A stretch of DNA of 64,000 nucleotides from Spirosoma profusum (GTDB lineage Bacteria > Bacteroidota > Bacteroidia > Cytophagales > Spirosomataceae). Below the pieces are notes generated by a model that ran no database searches, had not been told where the DNA came from, and was given only the letters and a program-made list of their open reading frames with translations. This document shows, in pieces, positions 1 to 64,000 of this stretch. The position numbers and the translations under genes were made by a program. How positions within the stretch are numbered: the stretch's first letter is position 1; each line of letters starts with the position of its first letter. The stretch is taken from the NCBI RefSeq assembly GCF_014699005.1, contig NZ_JACWZY010000004.1:62001-126000 (forward strand). Reading direction: 5' to 3'.

Positions 1-145
1 TACGTATCAGTGATGTTTTGCCGGCCCCGTTCGGCCCTAGTAAGCCAAAAATGCTGCCCTGGGGCACCGACAGACTTACATCGTCCAATGCCCGGTGTTC
101 GGCATACTGTTTAACAATGTGGTGGACTTCGAGAATATTAGTCAC
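1..145 (-). CDS. ABC transporter ATP-binding protein (5' part only)
   Basis: The first 48 residues of an ABC ATPase are visible and the rest lies beyond the window edge. The reverse strand reads a GTG start followed by an [11 protein letters not shown] strand and the Walker A loop GPNGAGKT at residues 37-44, which binds the ATP phosphates. This spacing from the N-terminus is normal for short-chain ABC-2 type exporters, so this is probably the nucleotide-binding subunit of an efflux or export system; the permease is not visible. GTG at 145 is the only start between the upstream in-frame TGA and the conserved domain. Family assignment is firm, substrate unknown. Confidence 0.85.
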
Positions 146-314
146 GTGAGTAAGTTGAAGGCGGTCGTTTCACCCATGTAAATGACGGATGATGGTCAAA
201 GGTAAGTGCGAACGGCAAAAGTCGTGTATACCGGCGTAAACTTCGACTTACAAATCCACATTTTTTACCTCAACAGGGATAATCGGCTACTCAACCCCAG
301 CAATGGCTATAAAA

Positions 315-342
315 AAGCCACAACCTGCGCAGGTTGTGGCTT
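315..342. terminator. Bidirectional intrinsic terminator
   Basis: A perfect 14-bp stem (arms 315-328 and 329-342) is flanked by an A-run on the left and a T-run on the right. It sits just past the stop of the RDD gene on the minus strand and probably ends that transcript. Confidence 0.8.
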
Positions 343-364
343 GATTTTTTAAGATACGTATTGA

Positions 365-811
365 TTATGCTTTCACTACGATGGTTTTTGCCCATTTATC
401 ACCAAACCGTTTGCGGTCATCGCTAAATACCATCAGGGCATCGATAATACCAAATAGGGGGATAATCAACGACACCTGGCGGGTGATGGCCGTTCCGTAA
501 TCGCCAACGAGGGTGGCCCCTGAATCTTCTTTAATGGCTTTGATACCCATCAGTTTTTTTCCGATACTTTGTCCGCCTAAAAAGCCACCCGTTGCTGGAA
601 GCGCATCTTTGGTCAGCTGATACGCAATCGCTACAGCATAACCTACCATGGCCAGATTGTAGGATATAAGAATAAATATGTAAGCGGGAATGTAAGCGAT
701 AACGCCATCGATAAAGGCGGCAATAAAACGTTGTACTGGAGTAGCCTTAACGTAGGTACTCAGCGGAGAATAAGAGGGTTGCACAAGCGTAGAGGGTTTA
801 GTGTTAAACAA
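365..811 (-). CDS. RDD family membrane protein
   Basis: A protein of 148 residues with the RDD signature: an Arg and an Asp in the first helix (RFIAAFIDG, residues 28-36), a small-residue segment around GGQSIGKKLMGI, and a late RQVSLIIPL helix followed by FGDKWAKTIVV. Two to three membrane segments are evident. RDD proteins are small membrane proteins of mostly unknown role; some have been tied to transport or stress. The gene stands alone between the partial ABC gene and the symporter, all on the minus strand, with its own terminator. Family assignment is firm; the function is not known. Confidence 0.85.
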   Translation of the reverse strand: MFNTKPSTLVQPSYSPLSTYVKATPVQRFIAAFIDGVIAYIPAYIFILISYNLAMVGYAVAIAYQLTKDALPATGGFLGGQSIGKKLMGIKAIKEDSGATLVGDYGTAITRQVSLIIPLFGIIDALMVFSDDRKRFGDKWAKTIVVKA

Positions 812-888
812 TTGATAAACATTACCCCCTAACCTACGAAATCAGGGGCAAATCCCAATGTAATCCTTCCCAAACGACAAACGATTTA

Positions 889-2133
889 TTAAACGGTAAC
901 TTCGTCTGTCTCAACCGGCTGCGTCCGAAACTCGCCTTCCCATTTCGAAATGACGCAGGTAGCCACGGCATTCCCTGCTACGCTCGTTGCTGAACGACCC
1001 ATATCGAGCACCTGGTCGATTCCCAGCAACAGCGCCAGTCCTTCGATGGGCAGGTTGAACAGCGACATGGTTCCGGCAATAACCACCAGTGAAGCCCGTG
1101 GCACACCCGCAATTCCCTTCGACGTAATCATCAGGGTCAGCATCATGGTAATCTGCTGCTCGATGCTAAGCGGTACGTGGTAAGCCTGAGCAATGAACGC
1201 CGTAGCAAACGTCATGTACAACATCGAGCCATCGAGATTGAAGGAATAACCCAGCGGTAACACGAACGAAATGATACGTTCAGAACAGCCAAACCGACGT
1301 AGTGCTTCAATTGTCTGCGGAAATGAAGCTTCCGAACTCGCCGTACTGAACGACAGAATAATGGCCGAACGGACTTCCCGAAGTAAAGCAAAATACGGAA
1401 TCCGGGCTACCAGACAAATGGCGAACAAAATAACGAAAATGAAAAACAACAACCCCCCGAAAAAGCAGACAATCAGGTAAACATAGCCCGACAGAATACC
1501 TAATCCCTGTTTCGCTACCACGGCCGCAATAGCACCCAGTACGCCAAACGGAGCAAACGACATAACGTAGCTCGTAATTTTGAACATGATGTGCGACAGC
1601 GCGTCGAGAGCCTTAATCATGATTTTACCCTGCTCACCGACTGCACCCACGGCAATGCCGAAGAAAATACTGAAGACTACGATCTGAAGGATTTCGTTCG
1701 TGGCCAATGCATCAATAAAACTTGTTGGTACAATGTGCGTAATGAAGTTATCGAACGTTAGTTTCTGCACTTCCACGCCCGTATCGGTGCCTTTTGCGGG
1801 GAGCGGGAGGTTCATTACCTCACCTGGCTTCATAATGTTGACGACCAGCAGCCCGACTACCAGCGACAGAATGGTAGCGAAGTAAAAATAAGCCAGTGTT
1901 TTCAGGCCAATACGTCCAACTGTACCAAAATCGCCTAGTTTGGCAATGCCGACAACCAACGTAGCAAAAACAAGCGGCCCAATAATCATTTTGATGAGCC
2001 GAAGGAAAATTTTAGAGAGGATGTTCAGGTCGCTTCCTGAAAAACCGGATCCCGTGTCGGGAAAAAAATAACCAATGGCAATCCCGAACACCATGCCGAG
2101 AAAAATACGCGTAGTCAGGTTGGGTAGCTTCAT
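889..2133 (-). CDS. Dicarboxylate/amino acid:cation symporter (DAACS family)
   Basis: A 414-residue inner-membrane carrier that takes up dicarboxylates or glutamate/aspartate with Na+ or H+. Visible family marks are the hairpin-1 serine-rich stretch STASSEASFP (about residue 262), the FNLDGSM segment that replaces the usual NMDGT motif (about 295), and the hairpin-2 segment SKGIAGVPRASL (about 334). The ATG at 2133 was chosen because it opens the usual MKLPNLTTRIFLGM helix and because a -7 promoter box lies at 2162-2169, inside any longer frame. The gene is monocistronic. Substrate cannot be decided from sequence; glutamate and C4-dicarboxylates are both possible. Confidence 0.92.
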   Translation of the reverse strand: MKLPNLTTRIFLGMVFGIAIGYFFPDTGSGFSGSDLNILSKIFLRLIKMIIGPLVFATLVVGIAKLGDFGTVGRIGLKTLAYFYFATILSLVVGLLVVNIMKPGEVMNLPLPAKGTDTGVEVQKLTFDNFITHIVPTSFIDALATNEILQIVVFSIFFGIAVGAVGEQGKIMIKALDALSHIMFKITSYVMSFAPFGVLGAIAAVVAKQGLGILSGYVYLIVCFFGGLLFFIFVILFAICLVARIPYFALLREVRSAIILSFSTASSEASFPQTIEALRRFGCSERIISFVLPLGYSFNLDGSMLYMTFATAFIAQAYHVPLSIEQQITMMLTLMITSKGIAGVPRASLVVIAGTMSLFNLPIEGLALLLGIDQVLDMGRSATSVAGNAVATCVISKWEGEFRTQPVETDEVTV

Positions 2134-2161
2134 GCAGTCTGTTGAAATGAACCGTAGTGAA

Positions 2162-2169
2162 CAAATGTA
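2162..2169 (-). promoter_or_regulatory. -7 promoter box (TACATTTG) of the symporter gene
   Basis: The reverse strand reads TACATTTG, an exact match to the Bacteroidota -7 consensus TAnnTTTG, about 28 nt upstream of the chosen ATG. No clear -33 TTTG is seen at the standard spacing, so this is a single-element call. Confidence 0.45.
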
Positions 2170-2360
2170 ACGGAATCCGGCCACATCCGAAAGTGGCAAT
2201 ATATACGTATCAAGGCTTTTTTAGTATGTCAAAAGCTGATTTGGCCAAAAGAAAATGGGTGATATCCTTGTGTCACTACGTTTGTAAATGGTGGCTCAAG
2301 TTCTAATCCGCTCTGGTTTTACTACGTCAAGATCTTCCTAGACCGGACTTTCGGCTTTAC

Positions 2361-2957
2361 CTAGTTCGACTGAATTTGTTTGTCCTGAATTTTTGAGAGA
2401 AAAAGAATAAAACAGATTGCTCCTATGGTGGCGTACAACATATCAGACTGGGTATCCCAAACATAACCCTGTGTTCCTAGAAACGATTCAGCCGATTCGC
2501 CAGAGAGTTCGGCTACCAGCCATTCCAGAAATTCGTACAATACGCTGATCGTAACACATACGCAGACAGTCAGAAACGCAAGCCAGCCACCCGGACGAAC
2601 AACTTTTTTCCGAATCAGCAACTCTCGGGTAATACTCGCCGGAATAAAACCCTGAGCAAAGTGACCTACTTTATCATAATTGTTCCGGCTCTGATGAAAA
2701 GCCTCCTTAATCCAGTCAAAAAGTGGCACCTCGGCATAAGTATAGTGTCCCCCGATAAAAAGAATGTAGCAATGAATGAGTATCAGTATGTAAACCAGAT
2801 CGGTAAATCTAAATTTACGAAACGTAAGAGCTAAGGTCAGAAAGCCAATAATGGCCGGGGCTACTTCCAGTATCCACGTAAAATAGTCGTGAGGTTGAAT
2901 CGCCGAAACAATTAATCCCAGAATAAATAAGGTAATCAGAACGTAGTACTTTTTCAT
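2361..2957 (-). CDS. DUF2238 / YjdF-like inner-membrane protein
   Basis: A protein of 198 residues with about five membrane helices. The motif DKVGHFAQGFIPA (about residues 96-108) and the later YEFLEW and WDTQSDMLYATIGA stretches are characteristic of the YjdF/DUF2238 family of integral membrane proteins. The conserved acidic residues and histidines within helices suggest a membrane-embedded active or binding site, but no activity is established for the family as far as I know. The gene is monocistronic on the minus strand, with non-coding sequence on both sides. Family assignment is good; function unknown. Confidence 0.8.
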   Translation of the reverse strand: MKKYYVLITLFILGLIVSAIQPHDYFTWILEVAPAIIGFLTLALTFRKFRFTDLVYILILIHCYILFIGGHYTYAEVPLFDWIKEAFHQSRNNYDKVGHFAQGFIPASITRELLIRKKVVRPGGWLAFLTVCVCVTISVLYEFLEWLVAELSGESAESFLGTQGYVWDTQSDMLYATIGAICFILFLSKIQDKQIQSN

Positions 2958-3220
2958 ACTTCTATGGTATTGCCTGTTAAATCACAGCTATCACTAAGAA
3001 CACGTAGTAGCTCTATTTTTCGATACGTCGGCGACCTCTGTGTTTACTACGTTATAGGTCAATTTGACTAAAAGTCAACCCGAATCCTGAAAGCGTTACG
3101 TAGCCCTGTGAGGTAAAGTGCAAATCCTATACAGTCGAAATAAAATCAATTCTTTGTAAATTACACAGATCCGACGTAGTATGTGGTTAAATCTACCAAC
3201 GTAGCAGACAAAACGGAAAC

Positions 3221-3676
3221 TTACGTACGCTTAAAAACACGCTTGTAAACCGGTTTCCGGCACGCAAATTGTAACCAAAGAATCGGGTATACTAAATAAT
3301 CCGTTAATCGGAAGGGAGTTCTGAACGTAACGTCGTCTACGATAAGCGTCTGAAGACCAGTTGCATCGTTCGGAAGCGAAATTAACCTGTGACGGTGATG
3401 CCAATACGTCAGGAAGAAAGGAAGTTTTGCCCCGTGGTCGATAAAGTAGATTTCCTGTTCGGTGGAATTCTGGTCAACAATGTGGCTTATCCAGTCCTGA
3501 CGGAGCAGGAAAAAGTTTAGTTGCAGGTGAACTATATCGCCCCGTAAGCAGCCATCGAAACGTACCACCTTGACGGGCGGAAACGTGGGCGTCAGTTGCT
3601 CAAAGAGCTTGCGGTTAAATCCTGCCCAAACCTGAGTCAATTGCTGCTCAACGGGAGTTTTATGAATAAGGTGCAT
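3221..3676 (-). CDS. SRPBCC-fold (START/Bet v1-like) protein
   Basis: A soluble protein of 151 residues. The pattern GAKLPFFLTYWHHRHRL, followed by LIVDDVTFRTPF and a closing amphipathic helix RLTDYLVYPILWLQF, matches SRPBCC proteins found in many Bacteroidota, which form a deep hydrophobic pocket for lipids or other ligands. The ligand is unknown. Its ATG (3674-3676) shares bases with the first possible ATG of the divergent sensor gene, so the two genes must use a very compact divergent control region or the sensor starts further in. I am fairly sure of the fold and not of the function. Confidence 0.65.
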   Translation of the reverse strand: MHLIHKTPVEQQLTQVWAGFNRKLFEQLTPTFPPVKVVRFDGCLRGDIVHLQLNFFLLRQDWISHIVDQNSTEQEIYFIDHGAKLPFFLTYWHHRHRLISLPNDATGLQTLIVDDVTFRTPFRLTDYLVYPILWLQFACRKPVYKRVFKRT

Positions 3677-3689
3677 GAACGGTGAACGA

Positions 3690-40341: not shown

Positions 40342-40362
40342 GTTATCTGTTTTGAAGTTCGA

Positions 40363-43554: not shown

Positions 43555-43595
43555 AAGTAATTAAGCTTATTTAAGTTAAGAAAGAAGTATTTCTA

Positions 43596-44158: not shown

Positions 44159-44182
44159 GTTATCTATAGATTATAGATGTTG

Positions 44183-46679: not shown

Positions 46680-46709
46680 AATAAAAATTAGTCGTCAGTC
46701 GGTAGTCAT

Positions 46710-46801
46710 TAGGCCCCGACAGGCTCTGTCTGTTGGAGTCGCAATAGCGACTAACTCCAAGCCGTCCGGCAATTCCGACAGCCAGAGCCTGTCGGGGCCT
46801 A
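46710..46801. repeat. Inverted repeat related to family B
   Basis: Outer arms 46710-46728 and 46783-46801 are perfect 19-bp complements (TAGGCCCCGACAGGCTCTG) with a shorter inner stem. The GACAGGCTC core links it to family B. It lies between the eutC stop and the Smr gene start, on the same strand. Confidence 0.7.
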
Positions 46802-46846
46802 ACGCGAACTTTTAACGTATCGTTCGAGAAAATGTGTTCCGCTACG

Positions 46847-47638: not shown

Positions 47639-49017
47639 GCCGGAAGTAACGCTGTGTATAATTTTTTGGCCGCTCCGCCCGACAATCGGTTTCCCTGGTT
47701 GTCGATAATCCCCTGCCGAACCAGCCATTCTTCAAATTCAGGGGCAGAACGAAGTCCAAGAGCTCTTCGTACATACAGGGCATCGTGAAAAGACGTTGAC
47801 TGATAGTTGAGCATGATATCATCAGCGCCAGGAACGCCCATAATGAAGTTGACACCAGCCACACCTAACAGTGTTAGCAACGTATCCATATCGTCCTGAT
47901 CGGCCTGCGCGTGGTTGGTATAGCAGATGTCCATGCCCATTGGCAACCCCATTAATTTTCCACAGAAATGATCTTCCAGCCCAGCCCGAATAATCTGCTT
48001 GCCATCGAATAAATATTCCGGCCCAATAAATCCAACGACTGAATTCACCAGAAAGGGCTTAAACTGACGGGCAACCGCATAGGCGCGAACTTCGCAGGTT
48101 TGTTGGTCGACGCCGTGGTGGGCATTGGCCGATAACGCACTCCCCTGCCCCGTTTCAAAATACATCAGATTCTGACCGAGCGTCCCACGTTTTAGCGAAA
48201 GTCCGGCTTCGTACGCTTCCTGCAACAGCGAACAGGTTATCCCAAAACTCGCATTGGCTTTCTCTGTCCCGGCAATGGACTGAAAAACAAGGTCGACCGG
48301 CATCTGTCGTTCCATCAATTGCAACGTAGTGGTAATATGACTCAGTACGCAACTTTGGGTAGGAATGGCAAAACGTTCGCGCAAATCATTCAGCATGAGG
48401 AGCAGTCGCGACGTAGCAGCGGGGCTATCGGTGGCTGGATTGATACCAATCATAGCGTCGCCACTGCCATACAGCAGTCCGTCGATAACGCTGGCCGCAA
48501 TTCCCTTCGCTTCGTCGGTGGGATGGTTGGGTTGCAGACGTACCGACAGGTGGCCGCGCAACCCCTGCGTATTCCGAAACCGGGTCACCACTTCGCACTT
48601 TTTCGCAACCAGAATTAAGTCCTGATTCCGCATCAGTTTCGAAACAGCCGCTACCATTTCGGGCGTAAGGCCAGGCGATACTTGCCGCAGTCGTTCAGAC
48701 GTAGCATGGTCGCTCAGCAGCCAGTCACGGAGTTCGCCAACTGTAAATGACTTGACGGGTGAAAAGGCCGCTACGTCGTGCGTATCAATAATCAGGCGGG
48801 TTACTTCGTCGGTTTCGTAGGGGATAACGGCTTCATTCAGAAACGTAGTGAGTGGTACGTCGGCCAGTGCCATTTGAGCAGCCACCCGTTCCTCGTAACT
48901 ATGCGCCGTAATCCCCGCCAACGTATCGCCCGAACGTAGCGGACTCGCTTTCGCCAGCAACTGCTTAAGGTCATCGAAGCGATACGTAAAACCACCGACT
49001 GTGAATAAATGAGCCAT
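47635..49017 (-). CDS. eutB: Ethanolamine ammonia-lyase large subunit
   Basis: A 460-residue TIM-barrel subunit holding the active site of ethanolamine ammonia-lyase. Recognisable segments are LMRNQDLILVAKKCEVVTRFRNT, DGLLYGSGDAMIGINPATDS, FETGQGSALSANAHHGVDQQT and NHAQADQDDMDTLL. It needs adenosylcobalamin and works in the cytoplasm with EutC. The ATG at 49017 opens MAHLFTVGGFTYRF; upstream codons are not conserved. The permease gene lies 77 nt upstream on the same strand. No EutA reactivase, aldehyde dehydrogenase or microcompartment shell genes are visible. Confidence 0.96.
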   Translation of the reverse strand: MAHLFTVGGFTYRFDDLKQLLAKASPLRSGDTLAGITAHSYEERVAAQMALADVPLTTFLNEAVIPYETDEVTRLIIDTHDVAAFSPVKSFTVGELRDWLLSDHATSERLRQVSPGLTPEMVAAVSKLMRNQDLILVAKKCEVVTRFRNTQGLRGHLSVRLQPNHPTDEAKGIAASVIDGLLYGSGDAMIGINPATDSPAATSRLLLMLNDLRERFAIPTQSCVLSHITTTLQLMERQMPVDLVFQSIAGTEKANASFGITCSLLQEAYEAGLSLKRGTLGQNLMYFETGQGSALSANAHHGVDQQTCEVRAYAVARQFKPFLVNSVVGFIGPEYLFDGKQIIRAGLEDHFCGKLMGLPMGMDICYTNHAQADQDDMDTLLTLLGVAGVNFIMGVPGADDIMLNYQSTSFHDALYVRRALGLRSAPEFEEWLVRQGIIDNQGNRLSGGAAKKLYTALLPA

Positions 49018-49094
49018 AGTTTTTATATGTATGAGATAGGATGTATGAAGCATAGATTAGACGTAGCATTTTTAAATACAGCATACCCCATACT

Positions 49095-50399
49095 TCATAT
49101 ATCTTTCTTCCTGTACCATCTTGCTCCCAGAAAAACGCCCATTACAACAACTAATCCCCCGAAGAAGAGAAGACTCAGATTGCTATAAAAATAAATCATC
49201 GCGGCCAGTGCTACAACGGCAATCAGTAGTGCAACCGCCGGAAAAACTGGGTAAAAAGGCGCTCTAAACGAACGAGGCAAAGCGGGCTGTATTTTCCGTA
49301 GCTGAAATAACGACAGCATACTGATGATATAAACGACAACAGCGCCAATCGTAGAAAGAATTACCAACTTACTGGTATCCAGCAATGCCAGTGCCCCGAT
49401 GCCAAACAAGGCTCCAACCAGCAACGCCCAAACCGGCACCTGTCTACTACTATTTACCACTGATAATCCCCGTGGTAAATAACCCTCTCTGGCCAGCGCA
49501 AAAATCTGCCGGGAATAGCTGATAATGATCCCATGAAACGACGCAATCAGGCCAAACAGACCAACGCTGGTAAAAAATTTCGTCAGTGGATTTTGACGAC
49601 CTAACACAATAGCAATCGCTTCGGGCATGGGATAATCGAGGTGATCGAGGTTTTCCCAGTGCGTAATACCCCCCACGCTAATCATCACCGTTATGGCTAG
49701 GAAAGCCAGCGTCAACACGGCTGATATATAGCCTTTTGCAATGGCGTTTTTACTATCTTCCACTTCCTCAGCTACCATTGCAATGCCTTCGAGACAGACA
49801 AACAGCCAGATGGCAAATGGCAAGGCCGCAAAAACGCCCGACCAGCCAAACGGCATTGGATTGTGCAGGAACGTATCGAGGCTGGTATGTGGATAAACAA
49901 CGCCGATGAAAAGCAGCAATTCCCCAATAGCAATAATGGTCATAATCAACGAAAACCAGGCTGCTTCCTTGATTCCCAGTAGATTAATACCTGTGAACAC
50001 CACAAACGCTCCCACCGAACACCACATTACCGGCACCGATGGGTACAGAAAGTGAATATAACTTCCCAGTGCCAGCGCGATGGCGGGCGTAGCAAATAAA
50101 AACTCAATTAACGTAGCATAACCAGCTACCAGCGCTCCTACTGGCCCAAACGCCCGGAACGCATACGCAAATGGCCCACCTGCATTCGGGATGGCCGTTG
50201 TTAGTTCCGTAAAGCTGAAAATGAACGTGATGTAGAGCACCGTAATGAGCAGAGCCGCCATCAGAAGTCCTACGCTACCTGCAACACCCCAGCCGTAGTT
50301 CCAGCCGAAATACTCACCTGATATTACCAGACCAACGCCGATGGCCCAGAGGTGAACGGGACCCAATGCTTTTTTGAGTACGGGAGATTTATCCGCCAT
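49095..50399 (-). CDS. eat: Ethanolamine permease (APC superfamily)
   Basis: A 434-residue carrier with 12 membrane helices. The APC start ALGPVHLWAIGVGLVISGEYFGWNYGW and the NAGGPFAYAFRAFGP segment are those of ethanolamine permeases, and its place directly upstream of eutB and eutC supports that. It would bring ethanolamine in, likely with a cation. A candidate -7 box (TATTTTTG) is at 50437-50444, so permease, eutB and eutC form one operon. The C-terminus ends in a cytosolic RWYRKKDI. Confidence 0.88.
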   Translation of the reverse strand: MADKSPVLKKALGPVHLWAIGVGLVISGEYFGWNYGWGVAGSVGLLMAALLITVLYITFIFSFTELTTAIPNAGGPFAYAFRAFGPVGALVAGYATLIEFLFATPAIALALGSYIHFLYPSVPVMWCSVGAFVVFTGINLLGIKEAAWFSLIMTIIAIGELLLFIGVVYPHTSLDTFLHNPMPFGWSGVFAALPFAIWLFVCLEGIAMVAEEVEDSKNAIAKGYISAVLTLAFLAITVMISVGGITHWENLDHLDYPMPEAIAIVLGRQNPLTKFFTSVGLFGLIASFHGIIISYSRQIFALAREGYLPRGLSVVNSSRQVPVWALLVGALFGIGALALLDTSKLVILSTIGAVVVYIISMLSLFQLRKIQPALPRSFRAPFYPVFPAVALLIAVVALAAMIYFYSNLSLLFFGGLVVVMGVFLGARWYRKKDI

Positions 50400-50436
50400 G
50401 AAATCAGGAAGTTATCGACAGGTGGTACGTTCTGGT

Positions 50437-50444
50437 CAAAAATA
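50437..50444 (-). promoter_or_regulatory. Candidate -7 box (TATTTTTG) of the ethanolamine operon
   Basis: The reverse strand reads TATTTTTG, matching TAnnTTTG, about 38 nt before the permease ATG. No cobalamin riboswitch is recognised in this gap. Confidence 0.35.
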
Positions 50445-50568
50445 CAAGCAATACGTTGTTAAAATGGCTGGATATAGACGTTAAATCTTGAGAAATTTGT
50501 TACGTTGATAAATCATCTCAAAAAACGAGCCCAATCAACGTAAAGCTACTCGTTAGTAGCTCCGACAT

Positions 50569-50600
50569 GTAAATTATTTACACGAAAATGCTTACATTTG
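50569..50600 (+). promoter_or_regulatory. Helicase gene promoter with overlapping palindrome
   Basis: A -7 box TACATTTG (50593-50600) lies 20 nt before the helicase ATG. A 13-nt palindrome GTAAATTATTTAC (50569-50581) sits where the spacer and -33 region should be, as an operator would. Confidence 0.5.
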
Positions 50601-50619
50601 ACCCTTTGTACGCCTTATC

Positions 50620-53073
50620 ATGATTGCCCCCGTCAACGAAAAACTTGAACTTGCTCATCAGTTTGTACTCCACACCAACCGAAACATTTTCCTGACCGGC
50701 AAAGCGGGCACAGGCAAAACTACGTTTCTGCACCAGGTTAAACAGATAAGCGCCAAACGACTGGCGGTCGTGGCCCCCACGGGCGTAGCAGCCATTAACG
50801 CCGGAGGTGTCACGATTCACTCATTATTTCAACTTCCTTTCGGTCCACTGGTTCCAGGTTCGACGCTACGTGAAAGCCGCAAGTTTAACAAAGAGAAAAT
50901 ACGACTCCTACGTACGCTCGACCTGCTGATCATCGACGAAATCAGCATGGTTCGGGCCGACGTGCTTGATGGAATTGATGAAGTGCTACGTCGGTATCGA
51001 AACAACGGACAGCCTTTTGGTGGCGTGCAACTGCTGCTCATTGGCGACATGCAGCAATTACCCCCCGTTATTCGGGATGAAGAGTGGTCGTTGCTGAAAC
51101 CACACTACGAAACGGGTTATTTTTTCGGGAGCAAAGCGCTACGTCAAATCCCTTACATATCGATCGAGCTGACCCATATTTACCGCCAGGCCGATGCACG
51201 ATTTATCAGTCTGCTCAATAGCATCCGTGAAAAAACGGTCACGCGCGATCAGTTGGCCGACCTCAACCAGCGCCATATTCCCAATTTTGCGCCCCACGAT
51301 AAAGAAGGTTACATTACGCTTTCGACGCACAATACTACTGCACAGCAAATCAACAGCAACAAACTTGCTGGTCTCCCAACTGGTTTACACACGTTCGAAG
51401 CCATTGTGGAAGGTGATTTCCCGACCAGCATTTACCCAACGGAAGCTAGTCTGGAACTGAAAGTTGGAGCGCAGGTTATGTTCATCAAAAATGACATCAC
51501 CCGCGAAAAACGGTACTACAACGGCAAAATCGGACAGATAGTCGACATCGACGATGACATTATCTACGTCCAGTGTGGTGACAACGAAGACGTAATTGAT
51601 GTACTTCCCGTTGACTGGACAAACTTGAAGTACACGCTAGATCCGGCTACCAAAGAAATTAAGGCTGAAGCAATTGGTACGTTCCGACAGTTTCCGCTTA
51701 AGCTTGCCTGGGCCATTACGATTCATAAAAGCCAGGGCTTAACCTTCGAAAAAGCAATTATTGATGCGTCGGCGGCTTTCGCGCATGGGCAGGTATACGT
51801 AGCGTTGAGCCGTTGCAAAACACTCGACGGCCTGGTGCTACGTTCACCGATTCCATCGCACAGTATCAAAACCGAGCAGACGCTGGAGGATTTTCACGAC
51901 GAAGTACAACAGCAAACACCCACCGAGCAGCACCTGCGCGACTCTCGACGTAGCAATCAGCAGGTACTACTTCAGGAGCTATTTTCGTTCGAACGTGCCA
52001 GTTCACTAACGTATCGTTGCCGCCGTGTCGTGAATGAACATACGAATAGTTTAGATGCTGAATGTTTCCCTATCCTTACTGAGTTACGTGATTTGTTGCA
52101 GAATAAAGCCCGCAATGTAACGAATCGTTTTCAGCAGCAACTACCTGTTTATTTCGAAGAAGAGACGTTACCCGAAGAAAACGATACGTTACAAGAGCGA
52201 ATTCGTAAGGCAACTGCTTATTTCCAGGCAGTGCTCGGTGACGAACTCCTACCCCTCCTCCACCGCTGTCCTACCGACTCCGACAACAAGCAGGTGCGCG
52301 AATCACTGCTGGAAGTGCTGGATGAACTGGAAAAAGAGTTGTTCGTAAAACTTCGCTCGTTTGAGAGCTGCCGGGATGGTTTTGACGCATTGTCTTATTT
52401 AAAAGCCCGTAACCACGCCGAATTAGACTTCCAGCCCGAACGTAAAAAACTTGAAAAAGAGGCAGCTACAACCACAGACAGCCCCGGTCGCGGAGGGTTA
52501 TATGGCGCGTTAATGAAATGGCGTAACGATCTGGCGGGCGAACATGATACGTCGGGATACATGGTACTGCCCCAGAAAACCATCGCCGAACTGGCAAAAC
52601 TTCGACCTACTACCCTTGATGAACTTTTGGCCATTAAAGGTTTTGGTAAAACAAAAGTGAAGCAGATTGGCCAGGACGTATTGGCCGTCATTAAAGACTT
52701 CCTTGAACGGCCGAAACCCACGAAAGAAACAAAAGAGAAGAAGGTAAAAGAACCGAAAGAAGCCAAAATTCCGTCTACTACGCAGACATTAGCGCTATTT
52801 CAGGCGGGTAAAACCATTGCCGAAATTGCTACCGAGCGCGGTTTCGCGGTTTCGACCATCGAAGGCCATCTGGCACAGTGCATTGGTCAGGGTGAATTAT
52901 CCGTTGAAGCTGTTTTACCACCCGAGCGAATAAAACTCATTCGCTCCCACCTCGAAACGGCTCCATCTACTACGTTCACTGAACTCATTCAGACTATTGG
53001 CAACGGCGTTACGTACAGCGAAATCCGTTTTGTCAATAGCGCGATACGGGCGGAGTTGGGAGAGGCTGAATAA
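50620..53073 (+). CDS. Pif1/RecD-like helicase fused to HRDC-like and helix-turn-helix domains
   Basis: An 817-residue superfamily 1B helicase. Walker A GKAGTGKTT at about 27-35, Walker B LLIIDEISM, then IGDMQQLPPV and the late motif AWAITIHKSQGLTFEKAII with VYVALSRC. After the helicase core (about 1-420) comes an acidic helical region, an HRDC-like domain (about 640-700: LAKLRPTTLDELLAIKGFGKTKVKQ), a Lys/Glu-rich linker, and a C-terminal HTH (about 720-770: GKTIAEIATERGFAVSTIEGHL). Pif1 helicases unwind forked DNA and G-quadruplexes in the 5'-3' sense. The added modules suggest DNA targeting. Monocistronic, divergent from the ethanolamine operon. Confidence 0.92.
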   Translation: MIAPVNEKLELAHQFVLHTNRNIFLTGKAGTGKTTFLHQVKQISAKRLAVVAPTGVAAINAGGVTIHSLFQLPFGPLVPGSTLRESRKFNKEKIRLLRTLDLLIIDEISMVRADVLDGIDEVLRRYRNNGQPFGGVQLLLIGDMQQLPPVIRDEEWSLLKPHYETGYFFGSKALRQIPYISIELTHIYRQADARFISLLNSIREKTVTRDQLADLNQRHIPNFAPHDKEGYITLSTHNTTAQQINSNKLAGLPTGLHTFEAIVEGDFPTSIYPTEASLELKVGAQVMFIKNDITREKRYYNGKIGQIVDIDDDIIYVQCGDNEDVIDVLPVDWTNLKYTLDPATKEIKAEAIGTFRQFPLKLAWAITIHKSQGLTFEKAIIDASAAFAHGQVYVALSRCKTLDGLVLRSPIPSHSIKTEQTLEDFHDEVQQQTPTEQHLRDSRRSNQQVLLQELFSFERASSLTYRCRRVVNEHTNSLDAECFPILTELRDLLQNKARNVTNRFQQQLPVYFEEETLPEENDTLQERIRKATAYFQAVLGDELLPLLHRCPTDSDNKQVRESLLEVLDELEKELFVKLRSFESCRDGFDALSYLKARNHAELDFQPERKKLEKEAATTTDSPGRGGLYGALMKWRNDLAGEHDTSGYMVLPQKTIAELAKLRPTTLDELLAIKGFGKTKVKQIGQDVLAVIKDFLERPKPTKETKEKKVKEPKEAKIPSTTQTLALFQAGKTIAEIATERGFAVSTIEGHLAQCIGQGELSVEAVLPPERIKLIRSHLETAPSTTFTELIQTIGNGVTYSEIRFVNSAIRAELGEAE

Positions 53074-53075
53074 AA

Positions 53076-53174
53076 GTTGTGACGCAGCGATGCCCGGAGG
53101 GTAAAGGAGATTCACAGAGAAAAATAAAACCTTTGTGAATCTCCTTTACCCTCCGGGCATCGCTGCGTCACAAC
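53076..53174. repeat. Inverted repeat with 41-bp perfect arms
   Basis: Arms 53076-53116 and 53134-53174 are perfect complements with a 17-nt loop, filling the gap between two convergent genes almost exactly. It shares no core with families A or B. Confidence 0.85.
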
Positions 53175-53177
53175 ACC

Positions 53178-55298
53178 TTAATATCCACCATAAAACTTCC
53201 TTAACCCCCACTCAACTGATGCCAGTGTGAGCACGAGGAAAAAGAGCCAGCGCCAGTTGATTAGCTCGTTCATTTCTTCGGTGCTGGTCAGGCGTGCCGG
53301 GTGCGGGCGAGAACCCAGATTACGTACCAGATCATCAATACGATTGGCGGTGTAAAACTGGCCGCCTGATTGTTGCGCCAATTGACGTAGCATTCCGTGG
53401 TCGGCGGTGGTGTTGATGGCTTCGAGCTGGAGATCACGTACCACAAACTGCCCCGCCGACTGTTCGGAACGGTTGTTTACATTTGCCGTAGCCCTGAACC
53501 GATATGCGCCCTGAGGCAGTCGGCTGATTTCGAATCGACGATTAGCCGCAGTGGGTGTATAATTGAAAGAACGAGTTACGCCTTTTTCATCACTGATTTC
53601 CAGACGAACGGGTTTGTCGAATACTTCTTCGTAAATGTCATTGTACATTTCCGTTTCGAAGATCACCTTCTCACCGGCCACAAACTCATTTCGAATCGGA
53701 TACACGCGAAGTTTCCGGCGGTCTTCCTTTACCGAAATCAACTGAATTACTTTCTGAAGCAACTCATCGACCACTTCCTGCTTATCAGTCAGCGCGTATT
53801 CTTCGAGTCGCCAACCCCAGAGTCCTTCCCCGGCCAGCACTGCCGTTTTTCGGGGACTTGTTACGTTCAGGGCTAGCAATGGCTTGGTAGTACGTACGCT
53901 ACCAACTTGCTGCCATAGCACCACTTCACTGCCCGGTTGAAGTCTAAATTCGCCGTAAGGAGCCAACAGGGGCGGCAATTTGGAAAGAATATCGAGCTTA
54001 GCCGCATCCAGATTCAACTGCTTAAACTCCGGGTTGAATACGCCCGTTACTTTATCACTCTGATTCGCCTGAGCGGCAATTTGTAATACCGAATTCGACG
54101 TATTGAACGGCCCCAGCGCCGACTGGTTGCCCAGCACGAACAACGTTGGCGTATTTCTGACTAAATATTTCTGAACCAATTGATTGCCGACTCCACCATT
54201 ATCCGGAATCTGGTGCAGAATAAGCAAATCGTACACTTTGTCGGGAAGTGGAGGTGCTTCGGCAGGAGTGCCTGTTAGAATACGGATATCGAGTTCGTAG
54301 TTCTGGTTTCGTTCCAGAATATTGCGGATGGCTTTTATATCGGGATGCGGGGCCAGCGCCAGCAAAAGCACTTTTTCTTTTCCATCAATTACGTCCAGAT
54401 AGACGTCCTGCCGGTTGTTACGTGTGCTGAACTCGCCCGGTTGCGGCAACACTTCCACTACATAGTGCTGTACGCCTTTTTGCGTGGCCGTTGTCGTAAA
54501 CGTGACCTGGTTGAATGTATCGCTCTTGCCAAAACTGATCGACTGTCGCCCTAATTCACGACCGTTCTGGCGAAGTACCACCGTAGCGCTACGTCCCTGA
54601 AAGCCGTTGCTGACAATTTCGGCCTGCACCGGAAACTGGTTACCGAGGTACGCAATTCGGTTCGCTATCACACCACGAAGCTGCACATCACGTTTCGCAA
54701 CGGTATCACCCAACCCCACGGTCTGTACCGTAAATGGATACTGCCCAAAGGTTGGCGAAAGCCCCTGATTGAAAATTCCATCCGAAACCAGTACTACGTC
54801 GGTCAGGTTACGCCCTTCATAATCAGAGCGAATACGCGACAAAAGGCCCGACAAATCAGTGGTACGTTGAGTGAATGGAATCTGCGTGAGGTCGCTTTCG
54901 GTAACGGTATCGCCAAACGTACGCACGGCTACGTCCAATCCTTTATCGGCCAATTGCTGACGTAACGTTTGCAAACCCGTCAGAGCCTGATTCAGCGCCG
55001 GTCGACCGGCAGCGGCTACCGACTCGGAGTTATCGACGGCCAATACCACTTTCGGCTTTTCGGTCAGTGTGCGCAGGCTGCGAATGAGGGGATTTAACAG
55101 CAGAAAACACAGAAAGCTGACGATGACAAACCGTAATGCTGCCAATCCATACGTAGTTCGCTTATCGAACCCACCCACGGTTGTAGACCCGCCCGCCATC
55201 AGCCGCGGCAAGGGTTGATACATAGCAAAAGCGTACGCGGCACCAACCAGCAGGCACACCAGAATCCACCAGGGAGAGGTCTGAAAGATGAAATTCAT
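53178..55298 (-). CDS. VWA-domain membrane protein
   Basis: A 706-residue membrane protein with two N-terminal helices (about 8-28 and 49-70), a von Willebrand A domain whose metal site shows AVDNSES (about 92-98), then beta-sandwich repeats, and a C-terminal helix (about 683-702) before a short tail. It resembles the BatA/BatB-like aerotolerance and glutamine amidotransferase-like membrane proteins of Bacteroidota that have a VWA domain between membrane helices. A role in envelope complex assembly is likely; the ligand is unknown. It is monocistronic and separated from fabG by a palindromic segment. Confidence 0.8.
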   Translation of the reverse strand: MNFIFQTSPWWILVCLLVGAAYAFAMYQPLPRLMAGGSTTVGGFDKRTTYGLAALRFVIVSFLCFLLLNPLIRSLRTLTEKPKVVLAVDNSESVAAAGRPALNQALTGLQTLRQQLADKGLDVAVRTFGDTVTESDLTQIPFTQRTTDLSGLLSRIRSDYEGRNLTDVVLVSDGIFNQGLSPTFGQYPFTVQTVGLGDTVAKRDVQLRGVIANRIAYLGNQFPVQAEIVSNGFQGRSATVVLRQNGRELGRQSISFGKSDTFNQVTFTTTATQKGVQHYVVEVLPQPGEFSTRNNRQDVYLDVIDGKEKVLLLALAPHPDIKAIRNILERNQNYELDIRILTGTPAEAPPLPDKVYDLLILHQIPDNGGVGNQLVQKYLVRNTPTLFVLGNQSALGPFNTSNSVLQIAAQANQSDKVTGVFNPEFKQLNLDAAKLDILSKLPPLLAPYGEFRLQPGSEVVLWQQVGSVRTTKPLLALNVTSPRKTAVLAGEGLWGWRLEEYALTDKQEVVDELLQKVIQLISVKEDRRKLRVYPIRNEFVAGEKVIFETEMYNDIYEEVFDKPVRLEISDEKGVTRSFNYTPTAANRRFEISRLPQGAYRFRATANVNNRSEQSAGQFVVRDLQLEAINTTADHGMLRQLAQQSGGQFYTANRIDDLVRNLGSRPHPARLTSTEEMNELINWRWLFFLVLTLASVEWGLRKFYGGY

Positions 55299-55302
55299 GA
55301 AA

Positions 55303-55388
55303 AGTCGTTAGTATTCGTCAGTCAATAGTGGTTAGTCGTCAGCCGCAATAACACTTTGCTATTGACTAACGACTGATAACTAACGACT
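55303..55388. repeat. Imperfect inverted repeat (AGTCGTTAGT type)
   Basis: The words AGTCGTTAGT and ACTAACGACT face each other around short direct repeats of GTCGTTAGT/GTCAGTC, between fabG and the VWA gene. A shorter echo (TAGTCGTCAGTCGG) lies at 46689-46702. Confidence 0.5.
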
Positions 55389-55392
55389 AGTA

Positions 55393-56139
55393 TTAAGTTA
55401 ACATTCCCCCATCCACTTGCAGCACCTGACCGGTGATGTAGCGCGAAAGGTCAGAAGCCAGAAAAACGGCACAATCAGCCACCTCGTCGGGCTGGCCACC
55501 CCGTTTCATGGGAATCTGTTGTTTCCAGTCTTCGAGGGCTTTCTCGTTGATTTCGCCCGTCATTTCCGTTTCGATAAAACCCGGCGCAATGGCGTTGGAG
55601 CGAATATTTCTCGACCCCAGTTCCAACGCAACCGACTTGGTAAATCCGATAATTCCCGCTTTCGAAGCCGCATAGTTGGCCTGTCCGGCGTTACCCCGAA
55701 TACCGACCACCGACGTCAGATTAATGATTGACCCGGCCTTAGCTTTCATCATGGGTTTGATGGCGGCTTTGGTGAGGTTGAAGACTGATTTTAAATTAAC
55801 GGTAATAACGCTGTCCCATTGTTCTTCGGACATCCGCATCAGCAGACCATCTTTCGTAATACCAGCATTATTAATCAATACGTCGAGTTTGCCGAAATCA
55901 GCAATTACCTGATTAATAAGCTCTTCAGCAGCCTGGAAGTCTGACGCATCGGAACGGTAACCTTTCACCTGACCACCAAACGTCCGAAGTTCTTCTTCCA
56001 ATGCCTGCCCTTTTTCAACGCTCGACAGATAAGTAAAGGCAACTGTGGCACCCTCCTTTGCAAATTTCTGAGCCATAGCCCGGCCAATTCCGCGCGAGGC
56101 ACCTGTAATTAAAGCAACTTTTCCCTGTAGTAAACCCAT
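55393..56139 (-). CDS. fabG: 3-oxoacyl-ACP reductase (SDR family)
   Basis: A 248-residue short-chain dehydrogenase that reduces 3-oxoacyl-ACP in fatty acid synthesis using NADPH. The cofactor loop TGASRGIGRAMAQKF is at about 13-27, NNAG at about 90, the catalytic Ser in INLTSVVGIRGN, Tyr and Lys in NYAASKAG, then PGFIETEM, and it ends YITGQVLQVDGGMLT, as FabG does. It is not next to other fab genes, which is common in Bacteroidota. Enzymes of other SDR activities can look alike, but the whole pattern fits FabG. Confidence 0.92.
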   Translation of the reverse strand: MGLLQGKVALITGASRGIGRAMAQKFAKEGATVAFTYLSSVEKGQALEEELRTFGGQVKGYRSDASDFQAAEELINQVIADFGKLDVLINNAGITKDGLLMRMSEEQWDSVITVNLKSVFNLTKAAIKPMMKAKAGSIINLTSVVGIRGNAGQANYAASKAGIIGFTKSVALELGSRNIRSNAIAPGFIETEMTGEINEKALEDWKQQIPMKRGGQPDEVADCAVFLASDLSRYITGQVLQVDGGMLT

Positions 56140-56344
56140 TTCAATGAATAAGTGAAATTAATAATGAATACTGTCATAAAAGGGTAAAGAACACGGCTGC
56201 TAGGCATTATTCATCATCCATTATACAGTATTCATTCGTAGCAGGTCAAAATTAGTGCTTTGGTCGGAAACGGCAAGGTGCCATCCGGGTTTTGGTTTCG
56301 TGAATAAGCTACGTTACTTTGTCAAAAATTAGTTGCCTACCGAC

Positions 56345-57094
56345 ATGCGCTACTACCTACTCTCTACCTTACTGTGGTTTACTTTGTCAAACAGCCTGGC
56401 GCAGAAAATCCACGCCCATAATGATTACGAAAAACCACGGCCTTTGCTGACTGCCTACGAACAACGGGCCGATTATATCGAAGCCGACGTCTGGCTTCAG
56501 AATGGCAAGCTGGTAGTCTCGCACGAACAGCCAAAAGCCGGCGCGCCAACGCTCGACTCACTTTATCTGAAACCTATTGCTGCTTTTTTTAAGCAATATA
56601 AAGATCGGCCCAGTCAGGAACGTGATTATACCTTTTCGCTGGTCGTCGACATTAAAGATAATCCGACTGATGTTCTGCCGAAACTCCTTGCCCTGTTACA
56701 GGAAAACCTGCCTTCCTTTAACCGAGCGGCTAATCTGAGGGCCATACAGGTCGTCATTAGTGGCAACCGGCCTAAAATTCCGGTTTATTTCGATTATCCG
56801 CTACTACAATTTGATGGACGGCCGAGCGAAGTTTACGATGAAGAAACACTTCAGCATATCGCACTCATTAGCGACAATTTTCGGTTATATTCACAGTGGA
56901 ATGGAGAAGGAGAAATGTCGGATGTCGACAAGGAAAAGCTAAAACGCGTTATCAAACGGGCACATAGCGACAAAAAACCAATTCGATTCTGGGGCATTCC
57001 CGATACGCCCAACGCCTGGAAACAACTCAAAAAGTTGGGCGTTGACGTACTGAACACCGATAAAGTAGTCGAATGTGTGGAGGCTATGCGCTAA
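56345..57094 (+). CDS. Exported PI-PLC/GDPD-like phosphodiesterase
   Basis: A 249-residue exported protein with a signal peptide (about 1-16, ending SLAQ) and the fold of phosphatidylinositol phospholipase C / glycerophosphodiesterases. HAHNDYE (about 20-26), YIEADVWLQNGKLVVSHE with its acidic metal ligand and histidine, and later LVVDIKDNP mark the TIM barrel. The C-terminal WGIPDTPNAW completes the barrel. Members cleave phospholipid headgroups. ATG 56345 was chosen over one at 56333 because it opens a normal signal peptide. Confidence 0.82.
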   Translation: MRYYLLSTLLWFTLSNSLAQKIHAHNDYEKPRPLLTAYEQRADYIEADVWLQNGKLVVSHEQPKAGAPTLDSLYLKPIAAFFKQYKDRPSQERDYTFSLVVDIKDNPTDVLPKLLALLQENLPSFNRAANLRAIQVVISGNRPKIPVYFDYPLLQFDGRPSEVYDEETLQHIALISDNFRLYSQWNGEGEMSDVDKEKLKRVIKRAHSDKKPIRFWGIPDTPNAWKQLKKLGVDVLNTDKVVECVEAMR

Positions 57095-61210: not shown

Positions 61211-61224
61211 AGGAGACAGTCAGC

Positions 61225-62388
61225 TTACGTCCAATACAGGATTGGTGCATTTGGGAAACGATGCTGCCACTCGGCATAAAAGAAGTTTTTCATTTCCTTC
61301 ATCTCCTCGGGCCGATAAACATACTTGGTGCCACCAAACTTATTGCGTTTCTGGGCGCGTGTCGCTTCGTCCATCTCCAGCGACGTGTTCGGATACCACT
61401 GCAACAGCACTTCCTTCGAACCGGGCGTAAAGCGGTGGCTGATAAATTCTACGTTCATGTCCACCAGACCGGCGTTCCGGGGAAAGTCAATAACCTCGGC
61501 GATACGGTCGAGCAGGGCGGTGTAATGCTCGCGCCAACCGGGAATGGGCATAATCGGCGCGATGACCACACCAACGGGATATCCGCCACCACCCAGTTCT
61601 TTTGGAAGAGCCAGTTTACGGAGCGCCTGCAAACGAGCTTCTACCGAAGCTGTGCCGCCCTCTAAACGACGGGCCACAATGTCGGCATTGATACTAAAAC
61701 GGGCGCGGGTTTGCCCGTTGTGAGGCAGATCGAGCAGGCTGTCTACCTGATCGTACTTGGAAACAAACCGCAGCTGGCCGTGTCCACGGTGGCCCATTTG
61801 CCGTTCACCAAAATGGCGGATACACTCGGCTAAGCTACCCGTCAGGTGCTCGATGCCCAGTACGTCGGTGTAACAGCTCACTTCAAACGTAGTTGGTCGG
61901 CTGGCGTCGTTGCCCTGCCAGCTCCGGTTGGGGGGGTAAGTGCCTTCGTAAGTGGCCGTGTGGGCCAGCATTTCAGGAAGATTGGCGTAGGCCCGCACCA
62001 CTGGCGGACCAGCCAAACTACCCGCTAAATAGCAGTAGTGGCAATGAGCCGGACAACCTTCAGCCAGGTTCATCTGCCAGTCGGCCGAAGGGGGAATGGG
62101 CTGAAGTTTGAAGGCACTCGGTGGAGCATTCACAATCGCTAACGTATTCTTAGCCAGGCGATACGTCTCACGCTCATCTGCTCCACGCAGACCGGTGATG
62201 CGATTATTTTTGGCAATTTCGATAGGCAGATCAAGGGCCGATATACGTTCGTAGATGGCTTGACCAAAAGGTTCGTTAATGGCATCGGCTGTAAAAACGA
62301 CCCGTTTGGGCATCCAAAGGCGAGGTGATTTAACAAGAGATCGAGTAGCCGGTTTAGCCGACGTAACGGGGATTGGTTGAAGCGTCAT
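61225..62388 (-). CDS. Spore-photolyase-like radical SAM protein
   Basis: A 387-residue radical SAM enzyme of the SPL family. The cluster motif is CPAHCHYCYL (C-x3-C-x2-C, about 117-126), preceded by MNLAEG and followed by AGSLAGPPVVRAY. The N-terminal part has PKRVVFTADAINEPFGQAI, and a later region EVSCYTDVLGIEHLTGSL is shared with SplB-type proteins. SplB repairs the spore photoproduct in Bacillus; relatives in non-spore-formers are known but their substrate is unclear. ATG 62388 was chosen as it opens MTLQPIPVTSAKP. It is monocistronic. Confidence 0.88.
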   Translation of the reverse strand: MTLQPIPVTSAKPATRSLVKSPRLWMPKRVVFTADAINEPFGQAIYERISALDLPIEIAKNNRITGLRGADERETYRLAKNTLAIVNAPPSAFKLQPIPPSADWQMNLAEGCPAHCHYCYLAGSLAGPPVVRAYANLPEMLAHTATYEGTYPPNRSWQGNDASRPTTFEVSCYTDVLGIEHLTGSLAECIRHFGERQMGHRGHGQLRFVSKYDQVDSLLDLPHNGQTRARFSINADIVARRLEGGTASVEARLQALRKLALPKELGGGGYPVGVVIAPIMPIPGWREHYTALLDRIAEVIDFPRNAGLVDMNVEFISHRFTPGSKEVLLQWYPNTSLEMDEATRAQKRNKFGGTKYVYRPEEMKEMKNFFYAEWQHRFPNAPILYWT

Positions 62389-62829
62389 AACGTAGTAGAA
62401 GAACGGGTAATACCAAGCAGAATAGCCCGCCACCCGTACACATTAATAACATATTTATCCCTTGGATAGCTCCCATATTATTTATATATTTTAACAATTA
62501 AACATCTGACTATCAATAATATAACCTCAGCTCCAAATAACTTTATTAGTAGATTAAAACCCCTTTATAAGCTCAACTCCAACATGCCTTTTTTGTCATG
62601 ATAAAGAAGTCAGGCCGCTGGAGCGGAAGCATGACAAAAAACGCAAGCTGGTATTACGTCGGTTAGTTTAAATAGCTGCGGACAGTTTCGATACGTAGCA
62701 GAAATTTTCCTAAAAATAATTGCCCTTCATCACATTGTATTTGCATTAGTGAAGCACTATTTACGTATTTACAGCCGTTTTCTGTTAACAACCTGTGCCG
62801 ATGATCGGACGTATTGTCCGAAGCTGATA
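62389..62829. other. Intergenic region with a hairpin near its middle
   Basis: About 440 nt between the radical SAM gene and the next gene. The first part is AT-rich; a family A-like hairpin lies at 62589-62641; a GTG-started extension (from 62749) precedes the chosen start at 62830. No TAnnTTTG box is evident. Confidence 0.5.
62589..62641. repeat. Degenerate family A-like hairpin
   Basis: Outer arms TTTTTTGTCATG (62589-62600) and CATGACAAAAAA (62630-62641) are perfect, with an inner CCGCT/AGCGG stem. The TTTTGTCATG edges match family A but the GAAGCATCTT core is missing. Confidence 0.6.
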
Positions 62830-63903
62830 ATGACGCTAACCCAACGCTTTCGTGCTTTTTTTTCACGGCCTACGCCCATAAGTTCCTCATTGCCTACTCC
62901 TACAGTTCGTAGTACTATGCCAACGGACGTAGCGCCAGTTAAACAGGATGTTGCTGCTACGTTCCTGCCCGCTCTCCCTGTTACGTTGGCGCCTTCCGAA
63001 CCTCTACCCGACTGGCTAGCTGATGAAGAATCTCTCCGCGACGAAGGTGTGCTGTTCGGTTTGTCAGACGCACGTCCAGACGGTAAGGTTGCCCAAATTC
63101 GGGCTTTTTTCGGGCAGCAGTCGGCTCCGCTGGAAGAATCCATCCACCAATACACCGAGCAAATTGGCGAAATCAATCAATTCATCAACGAACGAGAAAC
63201 ACGTATCGCCACACTACGTCATCAGTTGGACGAGTTGAGAAACGCTCAACCCGCTTCAACCAATTTGATTCGAACGGCTGCCAGTCTGCTGTTGTTGGAG
63301 GTCATGTGTGTTGGTACGTTCTTCCTGGTCGATGAAACGCTACGTCCTGCCTTCCCCAATCGCTGGGTGGCTGTAGGCGTATTTCTGGCGGGCATGTTCA
63401 ATTTAGCGGGCCGGACGTCGTTTTTTTATGAGACAGGCACGCGTTTGACCGCCCGTCGTCTGATCGAAGAAGTAGGGTTGCCATTAGCGGCATCGGTGTT
63501 TATACTGGTTCAAGCGCTGGAAACCAAGTCGACAGTGCAGGCAGTTGGCTTGTTTCTATTTGTATTTTTTCTGTTTCTGCTGGGTGGGAAACTTCTGCTT
63601 ACTACGTTGACTTCCCTTCAAAACGACATTAACGTAGTGCTTGCGAATCGTCGGTTACTAGTGCGTAAACAGGAAGACGTACCACGGTTAGAAGCCGAAA
63701 TAAATCAGCTTGTTCGCGAAGTGGATGGCTTGCGGACTCAGAAATGGCCGTTTGTTACGTCGCTGAATCAGACCGAAGCCAGACGGGTTCAATTGAACAC
63801 TCAGCGCGATAGACTTGTTAATCTATTTATAAGTGAGTTTGAACTTGCCAGAAGCCTTCGCGAACGACTTCCTGAGTCCCAACGCGAAGCCATGTTTAAA
63901 TAA
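62830..63903 (+). CDS. Unknown membrane protein with coiled coils
   Basis: A 357-residue protein I do not recognise. The first 60 residues are a Pro/Thr/Val-rich tail, then comes a coiled coil (about 110-155: EESIHQYTEQIGEINQFINE), four membrane helices (about 160-260) and a second coiled coil to the end (EAEINQLVREVDGLRTQ). The layout resembles membrane organisers or sensors with cytosolic stalks. The N-terminal tail DNA has three ACGTA/TACGT words in about 60 nt. ATG 62830 opens MTLTQRFRAFF; upstream GTG 62749 is less likely. Confidence 0.6.
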   Translation: MTLTQRFRAFFSRPTPISSSLPTPTVRSTMPTDVAPVKQDVAATFLPALPVTLAPSEPLPDWLADEESLRDEGVLFGLSDARPDGKVAQIRAFFGQQSAPLEESIHQYTEQIGEINQFINERETRIATLRHQLDELRNAQPASTNLIRTAASLLLLEVMCVGTFFLVDETLRPAFPNRWVAVGVFLAGMFNLAGRTSFFYETGTRLTARRLIEEVGLPLAASVFILVQALETKSTVQAVGLFLFVFFLFLLGGKLLLTTLTSLQNDINVVLANRRLLVRKQEDVPRLEAEINQLVREVDGLRTQKWPFVTSLNQTEARRVQLNTQRDRLVNLFISEFELARSLRERLPESQREAMFK

Positions 63904-64000
63904 GAGTTGTATGATGTAGAGTTGTAGAGTTGTAAGGTTATAGGGTTGTAAAGTTGTAGAGGCATGAAACTCTGTAACCTTATAACGCTACAACTTTACA
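63904..64000. repeat. AGTTGTA-type repeats forming an imperfect palindrome at the window edge
   Basis: Several AGTTGTAGAG/AAGTTGTAGAG units follow the last gene, and their complement (CTCTGTAACCTTATAACGCTAC region) begins before the edge. It is a candidate intergenic hairpin cut by the window boundary. Confidence 0.45.

Follow-up and report, generated by a model that had tools for sequence, protein, structure and literature searches.

The word YRNTACGT is over-represented in Spirosoma profusum and patchily distributed among its relatives

What fills a bacterial chromosome with one short word, and what is the word? The question is raised by a 64,000-nucleotide stretch of Spirosoma profusum DNA (hereafter the window; contig NZ_JACWZY010000004.1, positions 62,001 to 126,000, G000:C44:62001-126000 in our numbering, from genome G000 of 8.73 Mb in 81 contigs), for which an earlier note, made from the letters alone, proposed ACGTA/TACGT as a signature word. 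The over-representation is real, but its unit is the strict, non-palindromic word YRNTACGT (complement ACGTANYR) and not ACGTA. The genome holds 39,401 copies, 12.5 times the reversed-pattern control (3143), which bears out the suggestion of a signature word that spans the genome, broadly comparable to HIP1 of cyanobacteria. We see about an even prospect that YRNTACGT is read as a recognition word by a lineage-variable protein, present in some Spirosoma and Fibrisoma lineages, with its sites maintained by site drive or weak selection.

Identity of the word and size of the excess

The window contains 335 copies of YRNTACGT (positions 1..64000; 171 on the plus and 164 on the minus strand), or one per 191 nt, at 15 to 30 per 4-kb block across genes and spacers alike. 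Hand counts of ACGTA/TACGT made for the earlier note agree closely with ours: for positions 1..3240, where 22 were reported, ACGT preceded by T or followed by A occurs as 23 distinct cores (28 words counted separately), and the 19 reported for the PIF1-like helicase gene (50620..53073, plus strand; Pfam PIF1, HTH_40, and HRDC) are 19 distinct cores (22 words). These two stretches hold 17 and 13 copies of YRNTACGT, respectively. The statement that about half of the sites extend to ACGTAG/CTACGT is correct locally (12 of 28 and 10 of 22 words) but not over the window (162 of 491, 33%).

The flank logo of TACGT has Y at -3 in 78% of cases and R at -2 in 82%, with -1 nearly free and G disfavoured on the 3' side (9%), and because the preference extends to these two positions the word is YRNTACGT. 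The palindrome TACGTA is rarer than the product of its halves (0.57 to 0.63), and where a TACGTA already holds one word an overlapping second is still favoured, but less so (odds of 3.2 versus 7.5). The asymmetric logo and the shortage of TACGTA rule out ACGTA or TACGTA as the unit, and with them the palindromic core previously assumed; YRN is required on one side only, so the word lacks the palindromy of HIPs.

Markov and shuffle tests were applied to the window and to a 464-kb sample (the window plus 20 further stretches of 20 kb, about 5% of G000) rather than to the whole genome. TACGT occurs at 3.6 times the order-0 expectation in 464 kb but at only 1.40 times that of a maximal-order (order-3) model (1.37 times in the window), so that the excess of the 5-mer alone is modest. 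The full word fares better in this comparison, which the note had recommended, with ratios at orders 0, 2, 3, and 4 of 10.3, 5.8, 3.2, and 2.1 in the window and 9.7, 5.9, 3.2, and 2.0 in 464 kb.

A simple call of open reading frames (ORFs), taking the longest first and keeping those of about 100 aa or more, gave 357 in 464 kb, and the shuffle ratios depend on it; synonymous-codon shuffles served as the null for coding DNA and Markov models of order 0 or 2 for the 69.8 kb of intergenic DNA that these ORFs leave. Coding DNA has 2013 copies of YRNTACGT compared to 335 to 356 in the shuffles (5.7- to 6.0-fold), both in the sense (1013 versus 170) and antisense (1000 versus 177) directions, and sense TACGT is at 1.49, 4.06, and 4.07 times the shuffled level in the three reading frames. 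Intergenic DNA has 257 copies, compared to 37.5 (order 0, 6.9-fold) or 47.9 (order 2) expected. Because the excess holds over synonymous shuffles and in intergenic DNA, codon use, amino acid use, and base composition do not account for it, in accord with the earlier observation that the word occurs on both strands, in all frames, and between genes.

Specificity, strand, and spacing

The specificity is near all-or-none. By number of mismatches to YRNTACGT, the observed/shuffled ratio is 5.66 for none and 0.98, 0.94, and 0.99 for one, two, and three; among the 19 single-mismatch types, whose ratios span 0.60 to 1.50, those at positions 5 to 7 are lowered (0.60 to 0.95). This bears on whether a bias of composition, codon pairs, or mutational context could produce the word with no protein reading it, as might be supposed from the abundance of ACGT, TACG, and CTAC in low-order models and from the value of only 1.4 for TACGT over the order-3 model. 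The excess of the full word over synonymous shuffles and over the order-4 model, the sharp drop between zero and one mismatch, and the lack of the word in sister species of nearly equal GC content (0.478 versus 0.487 to 0.498) all speak against such a bias, and we consider it the most remote of the explanations. The mutational bias listed as a candidate cause in the note is not indicated in its single-type form, since the near misses at positions 5 to 7 are lowered for several substitution types, although gains are too few to be read directly.

Uptake sequences of the Neisseriaceae and Pasteurellaceae share with YRNTACGT a genome-wide excess and the lack of a palindrome. If it were such a sequence, competent cells would import word-bearing DNA, recombination would spread the word, and loss of competence would lead to its loss; its patchy distribution, its presence on both strands, and its sparseness in some DNA that looks acquired are all compatible with this. 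However, we know of no uptake word in the Bacteroidota, and YRNTACGT is shorter in information (12 bits). Moreover, the near-miss excess of known uptake sequences falls off gradually with mismatch number, according to PMC1939737, whereas here it is gone after one mismatch. We regard an uptake signal, also among the candidates in the note, as very unlikely.

The word shows no strand bias by GC skew in G000, with 1140 copies on the G-rich and 1150 on the C-rich strand, nor in the other four clear carriers described below (G008, G029, G031, and G003; binomial p of 0.31 to 1.0). Counts per stretch do exceed binomial variation in G000 (chi-squared of 39.8 for 21, p of 0.008) and in G029 (p of 0.017). 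Segregation words such as KOPS are likewise frequent short words, but YRNTACGT is without orientation relative to GC skew, and because of this a segregation signal, another cause considered in the note, is unsupported; any strand-oriented signal is rejected on the same grounds. Examination for helical or other spacing of the words yielded a codon period of 3 as the sole standout. Being strongly enriched, the word does not have the profile of an avoided restriction site.

A Chi-like site read by a helicase-nuclease of the AddAB/RecBCD type deserves mention, as Chi sites are non-palindromic, of about eight letters, and in some cases degenerate. A PDDEXK_1-domain protein (open frame of 879 to 1113 aa), which we take to be AddB-like, is encoded in 33 of 34 genomes, the one lacking it being 71% complete. 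It is found in positives and negatives alike, including close relatives in which the word excess is missing, and its presence or absence is rejected as the cause; in the aligned 793-aa part, no residue column passed the filter for tracking motif status. With no leading-strand bias, and with top 6-mers only about twofold over synonymous shuffles in the three best-sampled negatives (words of four to six letters ranked), a Chi role is a slim prospect, slimmer than that of an uptake signal.

Distribution among genomes and history of the sites

The word was counted in forward and reverse orientation in 79 whole genomes and divided by the reversed-pattern control; shuffle ratios for most genomes other than G000 come from 6 to 100 kb sampled from each. 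Among 36 Spirosoma genomes, five are clear carriers of the same word (2.8- to 5.9-fold over synonymous shuffles): G000 (count/control of 12.5; shuffle ratio of 5.86), G029 (22928/2638, 8.7; 5.70), G008 (22187/2862, 7.8; 4.82), G031, taken to be S. endophyticum DSM 26130 (18007/3056, 5.9; 4.55), and G003 (10207/1770, 5.8; 2.78). The flank preferences (C best at N, G worst on the 3' side) are common to these positives, less clearly so in G003. The remaining 31 have count/control ratios of 1.02 to 3.7, topped by G033 (3.7; 71% complete), G007 (3.2), and G002 and G014 (both 2.8). G033 may be a sixth carrier, with nine words compared to 1.5 expected in a coding sample of only 2.7 kb. Pooled shuffle ratios are 1.49 for five weak genomes and 1.15 for fifteen negatives, and the highest single ratio among the less-sampled genomes is 2.26 (G019, 14 versus 6.2). 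In the comparison of related genomes urged in the note, the three nearest relatives of G000 (its sister clade G004, G020, and G027) are motif-poor at 1.15- to 1.21-fold.

Outside Spirosoma, a survey of 390 Cytophagales genomes, with ratios inspected by eye, has values above 2.2 only for G365 (4.8) and G374 (4.7), both of genus g51, followed by G395 (2.1). In coding DNA, Fibrisoma limi (L071; its membership of g51 is not established) has 32 words compared to 10.4 expected, and the S. endophyticum locus (L074) has 41 compared to 10.1; the other eight named loci are at 0.46 to 1.43. Genus g67 is the opposite of G000 and is nearly devoid of the word, with 19, 42, and 34 copies in G143, G156, and G181, compared to controls of 1280, 1396, and 1170.

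A tree of the helicase alone places the five positives apart; the 30 Spirosoma rows require five changes, and the sister group of G000 is formed by motif-poor G004, G020, and G027. It is a single-gene tree of 35 rows with nine open forks and long outgroup branches. The named closest relatives of the window helicase, in a list that may omit the window's own record, include Spirosoma (75% for S. spitsbergense, taken to be G024), and several of the eight window proteins first scanned have domains that Bacteroidota typically carry (CHU_C type IX secretion, SusD, and TonB plug).

Sites were compared position by position in a block at 38692..57094, in which ten ORFs have orthologues in G004, G027, and G020, and which is present in part in motif-rich G031 (seven ORFs) and G008 (six ORFs). 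In ortholog alignments of six positives, 230 of 648 sites are common (ordered pairs, each pair counted twice; 101.9 expected if independent), and between positives and 14 negatives 123 of 1696 are shared (68.8 expected), although part of this gap arises because the word excess itself raises the independent expectation. G004 retains two of the 20 sites that G000 and G031 have in common, compared to 11 of 24 for control words. At 115 shared site pairs the letters differ at Y in 32, at R in 20, and at N in 15, with the class retained, as maintenance of a recognition word predicts. From these sequence comparisons the word could be an old trait lost many times or one gained in parallel, alternatives that site sharing does not separate.

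Two stretches of G000 (L005 and L020) are motif-poor, at 1.2 to 1.3 words per kb compared to 3.5 to 6.9 in the other 19, and of the 116 genes at least 1.2 kb long, three have no copy: a phage integrase gene (in L010), one gene in L005, and one in L020. Acquired DNA seems to lack the word, which may serve to mark it; we infer that resident DNA accumulates the word through point changes.

Candidate readers of the word

HIP1 (GCGATCGC) and the alternate HIPs of cyanobacteria resemble YRNTACGT in being short words in whole-genome excess, in genes and spacers, with sporadic variants among relatives. In Elhai's model for these, applied here, a resident methyltransferase would methylate YRNTACGT and methyl-directed mismatch repair would ratchet sites in. 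The strict, enzyme-like recognition favours this model, as do the degenerate letters, which recall those of methylase sites. The alternate HIPs are likewise sporadic among related genomes (PMC4390886). However, HIPs described there are palindromic and have densities of about 0.5 to 2.5 per kb, only rCCGGy being said to be higher, compared to 4.5 per kb for YRNTACGT. The model also predicts a cognate methylase shared by the carriers, and among five families (PF01555, PF00145, and PF02384 in 36 genomes each; PF07669 and PF02086 in 26 each) we find no member in every positive, although methylases of other families lay outside this search and a recently lost factor would escape it. PF01555 is without match in G000 and G031, PF00145 in G031, G029, G008, and G003, and PF02086 in G000, G008, and G031, and for the PF02384 and PF07669 proteins that G000 encodes, G008 lacks an orthologue. 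A five-family methyltransferase is therefore rejected as the common factor, and YRNTACGT, which comes from a different phylum, is not filed as a HIP, being non-palindromic and with no shared methylase found in these families. The methylase proposed in the note is possible as a cause, and we rate the ratchet model as a whole as doubtful. Our partial literature search for YRNTACGT, and for palindromes or methylation motifs of Spirosoma or Bacteroidetes, found nothing.

The HsdM-like protein of G000 has 56% identity to one of G031 and only 21 to 29% to those of G003, G008, and G029. Its type IIG-like protein (1125 aa), encoded beside a PLD/SNF2 helicase, has 29 to 30% identity to those of G003, G374, and G365, is closest to that of motif-poor G035 (43 to 44%), and has no listed match over 250 aa among the G008, G029, and G031 proteins compared; three proteins from the family search (G029 C4, 959 aa; G031 C25, 1171 aa; G031 C41, 1718 aa) lay outside this pairwise comparison. 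The surrounding segment (L280:11-11490), with an SNF2 helicase, the PLD/SNF2 helicase, and the type IIG-like methyltransferase-nuclease, is likely a defence island. Elsewhere in G000 (L282:6490-9124), a C5 methyltransferase, of a family that four positives lack, adjoins an MvaI/BcnI-type nuclease, a system which we take to be CCWGG-specific, and CCTGG is lowered to 0.61-fold, as expected for a system of that type. Eco57I-type proteins of G031 (C80, L285) and G008 (C8, L289) are 67% identical over 457 aa, and a protein pair encoded at these loci shares 93% identity over 180 aa, which points to recent exchange between these species.

Under the reading that we prefer, maintenance by a lineage-variable DNA-reading protein, a candidate protein would recognize YRNTACGT in carrier lineages and be lacking in most others. 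New sites arising by point mutation would be retained and losses resisted, either through site drive, in which recognition is followed by biased repair as suggested for HIP1, or through a very small benefit per site. Over time, synonymous and intergenic positions would fill until the word stood at some six times its neutral level, and this surplus would decay once the factor was lost; a sixfold excess at mutation balance would imply a scaled strength near ln 6 = 1.8. Such a reader would most likely be a chromosome-organising protein or a DNA-modifying enzyme of a family other than the five searched, and we do not tell the two apart.

Several observations weigh against this reading. No candidate protein was found, and G008 lacks an orthologue of each of the three methyltransferase proteins of G000 in the five families. 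Recognition falls somewhat short of all-or-none, as misses at the Y and R positions are raised (1.19 to 1.50) and the left triplet CTC, outside YRN, is at 6.3-fold; with CTC set aside, the top fifteen of the 64 left triplets are all YRN, and the lowest YRN, TAT (1.8-fold), is below several others. The ratio of shared to independently expected sites is 2.26 in positives, equal to the highest of the comparisons with negatives (1.79, 1.93, and 2.26), and is 1.52 to 1.77 for control words; since the positives do not exceed those comparisons, the data do not demonstrate common descent of the sites. Divergence is also too high for a substitution spectrum, with clear one-step gains at only four of 69 sites in window orthologues, and five of 106 in more genomes, all of different types.

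A further word, CGCCKC, is almost absent in all 36 sampled Spirosoma, with two CGCCGC and one CGCCTC in 1.72 Mb compared to about 804 of each expected (order 0), while CCGCCG has 1210 copies in the same sequence. Survivors in G000 loci are at L005:8672, L005:12950, L297:7241, and L297:7249 (the L297 copies being outside the 1.72-Mb sample). CGCCKC is also at zero in sampled loci of Larkinella (two), Rudanella, and Fibrisoma, and near expectation in Fibrivirga (14 versus 15.3). Whole-genome counts of CGCCGC, for which the reversed-pattern control is uninformative as it reads the same backwards, are 5 to 174 in 16 genomes; in G031 it is at one place on a 1.26-Mb contig among the matches listed. 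One idea is that CGCCKC is an unmodified nuclease target. The 464-kb sample is also depleted for CTGCAG, CTCGAG, CCCGGG, and GATC (0.15- to 0.58-fold), and for GGATCC (0.07 of the order-1 model). Among other features, the window has a spore photoproduct lyase match (61225-62433, minus strand; PF20903, E of 9.1e-88), although this bacterial group is not known to sporulate, and a bacterial 16S rRNA family search had no match in the 99.98% complete G000 assembly, with the control matched in nine of 14 genomes.

It is conceivable, but unlikely, that a lineage-variable system other than a classical methyltransferase brands whole chromosomes by point substitution about every 190 to 220 letters, leaving newly arrived DNA unbranded, and that the brand and the near-total CGCCKC purge in the same genera form a pair of sequence-only self marks. 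Why genomes fill with one short word, as with HIP1, is still an open question. Here the trait varies within one genus with an identical word, so that the gene responsible should be findable by comparing some 36 genomes, and the loss and gain of the word can be ordered on a tree.

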